From Erythrobacter sp. (GTDB taxonomy: Bacteria > Pseudomonadota > Alphaproteobacteria > Sphingomonadales > Sphingomonadaceae), in NCBI GenBank assembly GCA_029937545.1, contig JAPYPR010000004.1, forward strand, positions 1 through 64,000: 64,000 nt of DNA, written 5' to 3'. Each line of letters opens with the position of its first letter. Within the stretch, counting starts at the first letter, position 1. The notes under the pieces were generated by a model. The model did not search any database. It saw only the letters and a list, made by a program, of their open reading frames with translations, and had not been told where the DNA came from. This document shows, piece after piece, positions 46,487 to 50,402 of this stretch. The translations under genes were made by a program, and so were the position numbers.

Positions 46487-47601
46487 GCCGAATTGTCCCC
46501 GATCCGATAGCCCGACAGCCATGGCGGATGCTGTTTCCGCTGTTCGTCCTGATCGGATTCGGTGCGCTCGTGCTGTTTTCGGCGGCGGGAGGGTCTTGGG
46601 ACCCCTATGCCTCCTCGCATGTGATCCGCTTCCTCGTATTCCTGCCGATGGCTTTCGTCATCAGCATGTTCAGCCGGGAGCTGGCGCAGTTCTTTGCCTT
46701 CCCCATCTACATCGTGATCATCGTCATGCTGATGGCGGTGGAGGCGATCGGCTTCGTGGGCGGGGGCAGCCAGCGCTGGCTCGATCTCGGCTTCATACAA
46801 TTACAGCCGTCGGAGCTGATGAAACCGGGGCTGGTCCTCGTCCTTGCGCGGTTTTACGCCAACCTGCCCATCGGCTTGATTCCGACCTGGCGATCGGTGG
46901 TGCCTGCCGCAGCCTTGATCGGCACTCCGGTGGCGCTGGTCCTGCTGCAACCGGATCTCGGCACCTCGTTGGCGCTGGCCTTCGGCGGCGCAGTCGTCAT
47001 GTTCGTTGCGGGCCTGCCGTTACGCTGGTTTCTCGCTGCTGGAGCGGCGGCGGCCGTGCTAGCGCCGATCGCCTTCTTCTTCGGCCTTCAACCCTACCAG
47101 CAGCGCCGCGTTTTTACCTTCCTCGATCCGGAAAGCGATCCGCTGGGCGATGGTTACCACATCACCCAGTCCAAAATCGCGATTGGATCGGGCGGGCTGA
47201 GCGGCAAGGGCTTCAACGAAGGCTCGCAGAGCCACCTCAACTACCTGCCCGAACCACAGACCGACTTCATCTTTTCGACCATGGCGGAAGAATGGGGGTT
47301 CATCGGCGGTCTCGTCGTGATCGGCGCTTTCGCCATGATTTTGGGTTGGGGCCTGAAGACAGCGCGCGAAAGCCAGGACCGGTTCGCCAAGCTGCTGGCC
47401 ACCGGCATGACGGCGACGATCTTCTTCTACGTCGCGATCAACCTCATGATGGTGATGGGTCTAGCGCCCGTTGTGGGTATCCCCCTGCCCTTCATGAGCC
47501 ATGGCGGCAGCTCGATGATGACGAATATGATATGCATCGGATCGCTGATGATGGTCGCCCGCTGGAACCGCCGTGCCCCGCGCACCGGCCTGATCTCCTG
47601 A
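46483..47601 (+). CDS. rodA: SEDS peptidoglycan glycosyltransferase RodA
   Basis: A 372-residue SEDS polymerase with ten membrane helices. Signature blocks are SRWLDLGFIQLQPSELMKP-like (here GSQRWLDLGFIQLQPSEL), LLQPDLGTS, the large periplasmic loop, and LPFMSHGGSSMM. It polymerises lipid II glycan with PBP2 during elongation. GTG 46483 overlaps the mrdA stop (GTGA). It closes the mre operon; the tRNA-Lys gene begins 110 bases later and no clear terminator was found in that gap. Confidence 0.96.
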   Translation: MSRIVPDPIARQPWRMLFPLFVLIGFGALVLFSAAGGSWDPYASSHVIRFLVFLPMAFVISMFSRELAQFFAFPIYIVIIVMLMAVEAIGFVGGGSQRWLDLGFIQLQPSELMKPGLVLVLARFYANLPIGLIPTWRSVVPAAALIGTPVALVLLQPDLGTSLALAFGGAVVMFVAGLPLRWFLAAGAAAAVLAPIAFFFGLQPYQQRRVFTFLDPESDPLGDGYHITQSKIAIGSGGLSGKGFNEGSQSHLNYLPEPQTDFIFSTMAEEWGFIGGLVVIGAFAMILGWGLKTARESQDRFAKLLATGMTATIFFYVAINLMMVMGLAPVVGIPLPFMSHGGSSMMTNMICIGSLMMVARWNRRAPRTGLIS

Positions 47602-47711
47602 GCGCATCTGCGCCCGACGGAAAAACCCCTTTCAATCGCGAGCAAGCCAGCTATATGAGCGCCTCCCCGATTCGGGACGCCCATTCACGGGCGAGCGGCA
47701 AGCCGCAGTGT

Positions 47712-47787
<76 letters not shown>

Positions 47788-47850
47788 TTTCCTTCATTTC
47801 GTACCAGGTCATTTGCCCGACACAGGCGAAATGTGCCTCGGACACACATG

Positions 47851-47895
47851 CAATGTGATGTCCGTGTTTGACATCACATTGCGATGTGATAGTTA
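47851..47895 (+). promoter_or_regulatory. three-half-site operator and promoter of the HTH-ribBX gene
   Basis: CAATGTGATGTC (47851-47862) and GACATCACATTG (47870-47881) are perfect 12-base inverted arms 7 bases apart. The second arm pairs again with ATGTGAT (47884-47890) across TGCG, giving three ATGTGAT/ATCACAT half-sites. TTGACA (47868-47873) and TAGTTA (47890-47895), 16 bases apart, look like -35 and -10 elements, so a bound protein would block the promoter. The expected transcription start coincides with the ATG (47904), suggesting a leaderless mRNA. No FMN-riboswitch structure is visible. Confidence 0.65.
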
Positions 47896-47903
47896 GCCGC
47901 ACT

Positions 47904-49142
47904 ATGAACACTATCGAAAAAGTTCGCTCGCTCGTTTCGCAAGGTCTCATGACCCGCGCCGGTCTCGCCCGCGCATCCGGGCTGCATGCCAACACGCTGC
48001 GCGACTGCGCCGAGGATGGTTGGAACCCGACTGCAGATACACTTGCGAAACTCGAAGCTTTCCTAGAAGCGAACGACGAAACGCCGGTGATCGTCGGGGC
48101 CGAGGAAATCATCAACGAAGCACGCAACGGCCGCATGTACATCCTTGTCGACGACGAGGATCGCGAGAACGAGGGCGATCTCATAATCCCCGCGCAAATG
48201 GCGACGCCCGATGCGATCAATTTCATGGCGACCCACGGCCGCGGGCTGATCTGCCTGGCGCTCGACCGCAAGCGAGTCGAGGCGCTCGGCCTCGAACCGA
48301 TGAGCCGCGACAATCGGGAGAGTATGCAGACCGCCTTTACTACCTCGATCGAGGCGAAGACCGGCGTCACTACCGGGATCAGCGCCGCAGACCGCGCGCG
48401 GACCGTGTCGGTCGCGATCGATGCGAGCAAGGGGCCGGACGACATCGTCACTCCGGGCCATGTTTTCCCCCTCGCCGCGCGCGACGGCGGCGTTCTGGTT
48501 CGGGCAGGTCATACCGAAGCGGCAGTCGATATTTCGCGCCTTGCGGGTCTCAATCCGGCAGGCGTGATTTGCGAGATCATGAACGAGGACGGCACCATGG
48601 CCCGCCTCGACGACCTCGTCACGTTCGCGCGCAAGCACGACATGAAGATCGGCACGATCCGCGACCTCATCGAATATCGCATGCGCAACGACCACCTCGT
48701 CGAACGCGTTGCCGAAGACAATTTCGAGTCCGACTATGGCGGCGCATGGCGCATGATGACCTATCGTAACACGGTCGACGGCAGCGAGAGCTATGTCCTG
48801 CAGAAGGGTGAGGTGAAGTCCGGCGAACCCACCCTCGCCCGCGTGCACCCAATCTCGATCTTCGACGACGTGCTCGGCAAGCCGGGTGCCCGCAAGCGGA
48901 CCTTGCAACGGGCGATGCAGGCGGTCGGCGATCATGGCGCGGGCGTGATCGTAATCATCACGGGCCGTCCGGCGAGCGGCTATGGCGAGAGCGAGGCGGA
49001 GCGCAACGTCGGCATCGGCTCGCAGATCCTGGCGGACCTCGGCATCGAGGACATGATCCTGCTCAGCAATTCGCAGCCCAATGTCGTGGCGATCGAAGGC
49101 TATGGCCTCAACATCGTCGACCACCGTCCGATTCCGGAGTGA
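47904..49142 (+). CDS. ribB: HTH-RibBX: DHBP synthase with N-terminal HTH and degenerate RibA domain
   Basis: A 412-residue three-part protein. Residues about 15-53 form a Cro/C1-like HTH ([19 protein letters not shown], then [14 protein letters not shown]). Residues 65-265 are RibB, which makes 3,4-dihydroxy-2-butanone 4-phosphate from ribulose 5-phosphate; [10 protein letters not shown] (83-92), [11 protein letters not shown] and HTEAAVDI are intact. Residues 270-412 resemble GTP cyclohydrolase II, but the zinc-cysteine cluster that should follow RVH is absent ([16 protein letters not shown]), matching the RibBX variant; a separate ribA is therefore needed. No Shine-Dalgarno precedes the ATG. 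The palindromic operator upstream suggests autoregulation by the HTH. ribH follows after four bases. Confidence 0.9.
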
Positions 49143-49146
49143 TTCC

Positions 49147-49569
49147 ATGGCCAAGTTCCTGATCGTCGAAGCACGTTTCTACGACCATCTCAACGACATG
49201 CTGATCGATGGCGCGCGCGAGGCGCTGGCAGCGCAGGACCACGAGGCCGAAGTGCTCACCGTGCCCGGCGCACTGGAAGTGCCCGGCGCGATCTCGATAG
49301 CCGCAGACAGCGGTCTGTATGACGGCTTCGTCGCAATCGGCGTCGTGATTCGCGGCGAGACCTATCATTTCGAGATTGTCGCAGGCGAAAGCGCACGCGG
49401 GATCATGGCGTTGACCATGGATGGCATCGCGATCGGCAACGGCATCCTGACGGTCGAGAACGAAGAGCAGGCGCTGGTACGCGCCGATCCTAAGCAAAAG
49501 AACAAAGGCGGCGAAGCGGCCAAGGCTGCACTGGCGCTGCTCGAATTGCAGGGGCGCCTCGCCGGCTGA
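49147..49569 (+). CDS. ribH: 6,7-dimethyl-8-ribityllumazine synthase
   Basis: A 140-residue lumazine synthase, the penultimate step of riboflavin synthesis, joining the butanone phosphate made by RibB with the ribitylaminouracil. Conserved segments are [29 protein letters not shown] with the active-site His, and the phosphate loop region [15 protein letters not shown]. It begins four bases after the RibBX stop, so both substrates' supply and use are coordinated in one operon. Length is normal. Confidence 0.95.
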
Positions 49570-49573
49570 CAAG

Positions 49574-50402
49574 ATGCTCCAAATCGCCGCCCCGATGATG
49601 ATCTCGTCAGGCGCGATCCATGCGGTGGTGAATGCCGTCCTCAAATCAGGCGACGACAAACTCGCTGGCCGGGCGCTTATCGACCTGAGTGGCGGCTTGC
49701 TGGTGCTGCCGGCCATCTTTTTCTTCCCTCCGCCTCATGGTGCGTGGGGCTGGCTGCTGGGATCGCTGATCGTCCATGCCGTCTATTTCCTCGCGCTGGT
49801 GCGGGCGTTCGAGGTCGCGGACATGAGCGGGACCTATCCGGTCATGCGGGGCACGGCACCGGTCTTTGCTGCCTTCGGCGCGGTGGTGTTCCTGGGCGAC
49901 GCGATCACTCTTCCGGGCGCAATCGGCATGGGACTGGTCACGAGCGGAATCCTGCTCAGCGCGATCGGGCGTAACTTGACGCAGGAGGCGCTGGGCTATT
50001 CTCTGCTCACCGCCTCTCGGTGGCAACCTACACCGTGCTCGACGCGGGCGGCGTCCGGAACGTGCCCACGCCCTTCTCCTACATCGCCTGGGCGTTTTTC
50101 GTGCTGGGAGCAGTCATCGGCGGAGCCTTCGGGGCATGGCGCGGGCGCGCCTTCATCGGATACGCGCATCGCAACTGGAAAATCTGTGTCGCGGCCGGAA
50201 CGGCAGGCGTCGTCAGCTATGGTCTGGCAATGCTGGCCTATTCGGTCGGAGAATTGCCGCGCCTAGCCCCCTTGCGAGAGAGCTCTATCCTGTTCGCGCT
50301 GTTCATCGCGACGCTAATTCTCGGCGAGCGGCCGGACGGCTCAAGATCGCCGGCGGGATCGTGATTTTCGGCGGCTTGGTGGTGCTCTTGCTCTCTCGCT
50401 AG
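49574..50402 (+). pseudogene. EamA-family transporter, frameshifted twice
   Basis: The remains of a ten-helix DMT/EamA transporter. The first frame codes for MLQIAAPMMISSGAIHAVVN through GYSLLTA and then breaks near 50013. Reading continues from VATYTVLDAGGVRN in another frame, breaks again near 50340, and finishes as LKIAGGIVIFGG in a third. Each break is repaired by adding a single C to a short C run (GCCTCTCGG near 50013, GGCTCAAG near 50340). Two breaks point to decay, but single-base losses in C runs could also be sequencing errors. It follows ribH by four bases and was probably the third gene of that operon. Confidence 0.75.

Follow-up and report, generated by a model that had tools for sequence, protein, structure and literature searches.

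A riboflavin biosynthesis enzyme with a phage-like DNA-binding domain is predicted to repress its own gene through a conserved operator

The riboflavin gene ribBX analysed here is located in a stretch of 64,000 nt from Erythrobacter sp. (GCA_029937545.1, contig JAPYPR010000004.1, positions 1-64,000, forward strand), referred to below as the window. Its product, HTH-RibBX, joins catalytic domains and a DNA-binding-type domain, a Cro/C1-like helix-turn-helix (HTH), in one chain, and a palindrome built on ATGTGAT precedes the gene. The arrangement of HTH and matching operator is kept in most of the bacterial family. HTH-RibBX thus appears to be an active 3,4-dihydroxy-2-butanone 4-phosphate (DHBP) synthase that would repress its own gene, and here the adjoining ribH, by binding as a dimer to this palindrome. 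The probability of this reading, which is drawn from sequence comparison, is estimated at about 0.8.

A first-pass annotation of the window had reported perfect inverted arms of 12 nt and a third half-site, overlapping a predicted promoter. Perfect arms are indeed present, but their length is 13 nt, and the third half-site was found at 47884-47890. The resulting layout upstream of ribBX is ATGTGAT-N13-ATCACAT-N4-ATGTGAT. ATGTGAT by itself is not rare in the window (6 found, 4.8 expected); it is the arrangement that is rare, since the 31-nt palindrome pattern occurs once, compared to a mean of 0 in 100 shuffles (up to three mismatches). In the 3.04 Mb of the own genome, TCACATNNNNATGTGA with at most one mismatch yields one site, at ribBX. 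The proposed overlap with -35/-10 elements was confirmed in part. A candidate -35 element, TTGACA, is present and a TTG at this position is recurrent across a set of 155 relatives, but scanning 47600-47990 for the sigma-70 consensus detected no promoter, and the promoter claim is therefore weak for this single sequence. As stated earlier, no flavin mononucleotide (FMN) riboswitch (RF00050) is found: an Rfam scan of the window at gathering score returned tRNA only.

A RibBX match was obtained in 193 of 199 family genomes searched; from 180 of them, a single locus each was retrieved. The HTH, called with a profile built on alignment A1, is present in 156 of these loci and absent in 24. One HTH-containing locus (L118) was left out of the operator set, leaving 155. 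For each, the best match to ATCACAT-N4-ATGTGAT within 150 nt upstream was scored over 14 positions. The core was detected with 0, 1, 2, 3 and 4 mismatches in 45, 48, 39, 21 and 2 loci, respectively, while mononucleotide shuffles centred on 6 mismatches, with about one in 155 at 3. The palindromes sought upstream of other HTH-ribBX genes are thus found at all 155 loci with no more than four positions changed, compared to 6-8 in the 18 HTH-less loci with a match beginning after residue 50; a second count (21 HTH-less loci, 300 nt) gave 5-7. Picking best matches inflates conservation, and therefore all 7-mers were counted as well. The commonest one upstream of HTH-containing ribBX genes is ATCACAT/ATGTGAT, occurring in 130 of 156, but in none of the 24 HTH-less genes, for which 120 nt were measured from the match start and may include coding bases. 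In 20 shuffles, any 7-mer was present in at most 12 HTH-containing upstream regions.

When the 155 loci were aligned on the core, TATCACATTNNAATGTGATA reached up to 2.2 bits and the flanks stayed near background. TTG is enriched about 5 nt 5' of the core, and the first in-frame start codon follows 10-13 nt past it in 96 loci. A 7-mer resembling ATGTGAT (at most one mismatch) was hit 77 times at -19 to -22 from the core, whereas the other offsets between -45 and -7 gave 0-3 hits each. In Novosphingobium sp. ES2-1, a plasmid p1 gene annotated as ribB carries TCACATCACGATGTGAT and CGCGATGTGAC before its ATG. A RibBX tree (74 rows, quick method) requires six HTH changes. Only two independent HTH/operator contrasts have well-supported branches, and although they agree (p 0.5), no test can be based on so small a number. 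The case therefore depends mainly on the conservation of the site against unconserved flanks, together with the phage cases described below, and not on the contrasts. By this comparison, the predicted autoregulation of ribBX is well supported.

The half-site contains TGTGA, as do CRP/FNR-type sites, so that an unrelated regulator, for example a CRP-like protein, might bind the palindrome while the HTH does something else. This is highly improbable. The 7-mer tracks the HTH, and no second site of this kind was found in the own genome at one mismatch or less. In addition, the core order TCACA-N6-TGTGA is the reverse of the CRP order TGTGA-N6-TCACA, and the outer pair has a longer spacer. A CRP-like site was rejected because of this half-site order.

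Operator-like sequences were also searched elsewhere in the family. ATCACATNNNNATGTGA with at most one mismatch is present in at least 158 of the 199 genomes; among the matches listed, many are located directly before ribBX and others elsewhere. Several of 18 genomes examined contain extra sites. In G175, ribH is on a different contig from ribBX and has its own site, ATCACATTTGGCTGTGAT, 96 nt 5' of the ATG. A wider regulon was considered and rejected: of eight loci with extra sites that were inspected, the riboflavin pathway fits this ribH site only. The extra sites of G017 and G101 look phage-linked, while cases of the L103 type are intergenic and without a riboflavin gene. In G101, whose RibBX has the HTH, ATCACATCACAATGTGAG and ATCACATCACATTGTGAT (L287 1685 and 1795, contig C21) precede phage-like open reading frames (ORFs), terminase-like by eye, and cross-talk of the host enzyme with a prophage is possible. 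Extra sites at L271 1929 (G103) and L289 1595 (G197) are followed by a common ATGTGAATCGATGTGA; both are intergenic and away from riboflavin genes. A gene resembling a flavin reductase (by eye) is divergent to the operator at L273 1412-1602 (G175) and L271 4710-4816 (G103). As a general partner it was discarded, the motif being near just two of 39 full-length HTH-containing loci.

Relatives of the HTH were found in phages and prophages, a link that the first-pass annotation had not made. Both RibBX copies of G017 are without HTH, and this genome encodes a short ORF 57% identical to RibBX residues 2-57. It is part of a phage-like gene cluster, and the ORF facing it combines Peptidase_S24 with a weak Cro/C1 HTH; an IMG/VR contig (L278) carries the same short ORF. 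Upstream, gATGTGAT-N13-ATCACAT-tcag-ATGTGTT ends 12 nt before the ATG, matching the window in half-sites, spacings and register. Two further sites, 31 bp apart, are found 2.7 kb off, before another ORF. The homologue in Pseudanabaena phage Pan3 is likewise opposite an S24 ORF, has the recognition residues HRNTLN, and is preceded by the palindrome AGCATAT-tctg-ATATGCT (7 of 7 positions paired), 12 nt before the ATG and in the register of the window. The Pan3 ORF (L277 3001-3168) is unannotated; the record has two hypothetical proteins on the other strand there. L282, L284 and L298 combine DTTLR recognition with ATGCG half-sites. The distance from the 7-N4-7 palindrome to the ATG is 12 nt in L268, L277, L280 and L282, 11 nt in L284 and 9 nt in L298, against 13 nt in the window. 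Among the 155 RibBX HTHs, the recognition segment G-L-H-[A/P]-N-[T/S]-L-R and W-N-P are almost unchanged. Where the recognition helix differs, so do the half-sites, but the layout is kept. This suggests that an HTH of this type reads these bases, although the cases are few. The A1 profile finds L268, L277, L278, L280 and L282-L284, of which only L268 includes rows used to build A1.

Several results weigh against this interpretation. Several phage-type homologues have no palindrome, and when 12 homologues outside RibBX that offer a usable ATG were scored, only L268, L277 and L282 reached p <0.02 in register; four score 5 of 7 (p 0.06-0.10) and five score 4 or less. L286 was scored in this test from a later ATG. 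An HTH tree (36 rows, 55 columns) gives neither a supported placement of the phage rows nor a direction of HTH transfer. Apart from L315 and L317, which show no clear palindrome, single-protein scans of viral contigs recovered mostly the query sequences.

HTH and operator of ribBX are probably phage-derived, the direction of transfer being an inference: they would have been taken together from the cro gene of a temperate phage and placed before ribBX. Capture by the host is favoured because the phage genes are diverse and occupy a Cro-like position. The opposite course, in which both arose in RibBX and were later taken up by phages, is unlikely. The numerous RibBX HTHs and the lack of a supported placement for the phage rows in the tree would allow it, but the phage-type homologues are more diverse and include Pan3 from another host group. 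Three of them (L268, L277, L284) are opposite S24/C1-type repressors, the usual position of Cro, and the same HTH family occurs in CoaBC fusions. In the window, the genes before ribBX on its strand are tRNA and rodA-like, and ribBX is not opposite a C1-type repressor.

The enzyme part of the protein was assigned with Pfam: DHBP_synthase matches residues 67-258 with 281.5 bits and GTP_cyclohydro2 is found with 100.2 bits. The RibB domain is intact, with the D83-D92 motif, H186 and E205 invariant in 33 aligned rows. The RibX domain scores 38.4 bits against TIGR00505 ribA (cut-off 205.85), and the alignment confirmed the reported absence of its zinc cysteines. A separate true RibA with intact cysteines is encoded in the genome (G000:C72, 199.8 bits). 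Taken alone, the HTH is below all Pfam gathering cut-offs, the best being HTH_31 (14.5 of 27 bits) and HTH_3 (13.3 of 23). An AlphaFold model of residues 1-65 (mean predicted local distance difference test score 84.7) has helices at 2-12, 18-25 and 44-57; DSSP assigns no helix around residues 28-35, where the recognition helix would be expected.

DHBP synthases are homodimers. A dimer of HTH-RibBX could therefore place two Cro-type HTHs on ATCACAT-N4-ATGTGAT. This 18-bp palindrome probably takes up the -35/-10 spacer, and the further half-site about two helical turns upstream may provide an additional contact. Binding would exclude RNA polymerase, so that expression would be set by the enzyme level, with concentration-dependent autorepression as the default. 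A promoter on the TTG and a start codon 10-13 nt past the core would place the transcription start near the ATG. The transcript is thus probably leaderless, which would leave no room for a riboswitch. Alternatively, the HTH might activate transcription, or activate at one protein level and repress at another, in the way that phage repressors can at their own promoters. About half of the loci have a distal half-site or second operator, which could bring a dimer next to the polymerase. This is quite unlikely, however, as the most conserved site is located past the TTG, its end being 10-13 nt from the start codon in 96 of 155 loci; such a position suits exclusion of the polymerase. Control of an operon with ribH, as first suggested, holds only in part: the operator of the enzyme gene is conserved, but a ribH start within 18 nt downstream was detected in 17 of 39 full-length HTH-containing loci by a motif search that may miss some, and an operon with ribH is therefore not universal.

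It was also proposed that the RibA-like domain had become a sensor through loss of its zinc cysteines. These are also absent in 14 HTH-less alphaproteobacterial RibBX rows of the alignment, and other RibBX proteins are described likewise in PMC10012899. The loss is therefore not tied to the HTH, and a sensor that arose in this way is not supported; nor does any result identify FMN, riboflavin or an intermediate as the signal. The same autoregulator could still be ligand-controlled, with ribulose-5-phosphate, DHBP, a flavin or an intermediate altering operator affinity from the RibB or X domain. The classical enzyme-repressors PutA, BirA and NadR answer to ligands. In Shewanella oneidensis RibBX, the X domain is reported to control RibB activity through an unexplained mechanism (PMC10012899). 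As no computed result indicates a ligand and the cysteine loss is common to HTH-less RibBX, ligand control is considered somewhat unlikely, and autorepression by enzyme level is preferred.

In the order, 60 of 147 genomes contain the HTH. Of these, 57 belong to the family, with a RibBX-length open frame in each best match, and three do not. One of the three (G209) has a 94-residue ORF opposite an S24 ORF. In the others, G227 and G266, the HTH is fused to CoaBC (2 of 29 genomes of that family), which makes CoaBC a second coenzyme enzyme bearing this HTH family. The fusions belong to different genera, both in one other family of the order, and each follows UbiE/UbiB-like genes. No clear operator was found upstream in L285; counted from its first ATG, L286 has 5 of 7 at 11 nt. 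Among 385 genomes of the class, 19 HTH matches were obtained, four in family members; the remaining matches are weaker.

An FMN riboswitch was detected, with strict filters, in one of the 199 family genomes. In the order, 16 of 147 genomes have one, and each of these belongs to another family. In the single family case, G164 (L269, C1:1156500-1162500), the riboswitch precedes ribD-ribE-ribBA-ribH, the RibA cysteines are intact and no HTH-bearing match exists; the riboflavin operon of this strain has apparently been exchanged. HTH-less family members are mostly without FMN riboswitch too, and the HTH is therefore not a simple riboswitch replacement everywhere. In most Proteobacteria studied, a single biosynthesis gene, ribB or ribH2, is under FMN riboswitch control, according to PMC3766115. 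These are the same steps as those of HTH-RibBX and ribH here. A C-terminal motif of riboflavin synthase is found within 400 nt upstream in 22 of 155 HTH-containing loci. In these, ribE is thus separated from ribBX by the HTH, promoter and operator, an order that would fit their insertion into a rib operon that already existed. A wider scenario is offered tentatively, at slightly below even odds for its parts taken together. The cro gene of a temperate phage would have been captured as a unit with promoter and operator and fused to ribBX, giving most of the family a protein-based riboflavin switch in place of the FMN riboswitch, and CoaBC would have captured the same HTH family. HTH-RibBX may also repress incoming phages with these operators, because the operator specificity is still common to phages.

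No described HTH-RibBX or HTH-CoaBC regulator was found in the literature searched, which omits most subscription journals. Acinetobacter baumannii RibBX (6mnz) aligns to residues 64-410 of the window protein, the matched part being without N-terminal HTH, and for RibBX of S. oneidensis, A. salmonicida and A. baumannii no operator is described in the available part of PMC10012899. NadR, BirA and PutA likewise unite a metabolic enzyme and a DNA-binding domain in one protein, and resemble HTH-RibBX in the pathway control proposed; HTH-RibBX differs by the riboflavin pathway, the phage-cro-like domain, the phage-shared operator and the lack of a known ligand. It would be a variant of this enzyme-repressor kind, new for the riboflavin pathway. 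The archaeal regulator RbkR is also a riboflavin enzyme-HTH fusion regulating riboflavin genes, but its enzyme and HTH are different ones, and so is the domain of life. Cro-like regulators of the L268/Pan3 type share the homologous HTH and the palindrome register before the ATG, but are free-standing phage proteins of 60-90 residues. AcrIIA15 (8jfu, 8jfr) is also among the closest known systems. Compared to the FMN riboswitch, an RNA element not found in the window or in 198 of 199 family genomes, protein-DNA control is proposed instead. If true, this would explain control of riboflavin synthesis in a family nearly without FMN riboswitches, extend the few enzyme-repressors by one from vitamin B2 synthesis, and define a regulatory cassette (DNA-binding domain, operator and probably leaderless promoter) common to phage immunity regions and housekeeping metabolism. 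The natural HTH/operator pairs with ATGTGAT, ATGCGAT and ATATGCT form a ready specificity series, and as the operator is explicit and conserved, the reading is readily testable.

Table 1. Coordinates of ribBX, its predicted control region and related features (window positions unless a locus is named)
Feature	Position	Strand	Basis or remark
Perfect 13-nt inverted arms, 7-nt spacer	47850..47882 (arms 47850-47862, 47870-47882)	.	Sequence, shuffles
Distal half-site ATGTGAT	47853..47859	+	Two helical turns upstream of core
TTGACA, candidate -35 element	47868..47873	+	Sequence; TTG enrichment in 155 loci
Core operator ATCACAT-tgcg-ATGTGAT, putative HTH-dimer binding site	47873..47890	+	Conservation
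HTH-RibBX gene, 412 aa	47904..49142	+	ATG 13 nt 3' of core; no Shine-Dalgarno by eye
N-terminal Cro/C1-like HTH, residues 1-58	47904..48077	+	Profile, AlphaFold, homology with short HTH proteins of phages
RibB (DHBP synthase) domain, residues 67-258, with intact catalytic motifs	48102..48677	+	Pfam, alignment
RibX domain (GTP cyclohydrolase II-like, without zinc cysteines)	48702..49139	+	Pfam, alignment
ribH, lumazine synthase	49147..49569	+	Pfam DMRL_synthase 141 bits; starts 4 nt past ribBX stop
HTH-CoaBC (Pfam Flavoprotein + DFP)	L285 988-2481 (G227)	-	HTH at N-terminus
HTH-CoaBC (Pfam Flavoprotein + DFP)	L286 806-2290 (G266)	-	HTH at N-terminus

The gene following ribH in the window (49574-50364), by eye similar to EamA/DMT transporters, is split into two overlapping frames, 49574-50266 and 50020-50364, which suggests a frameshift or an assembly error.
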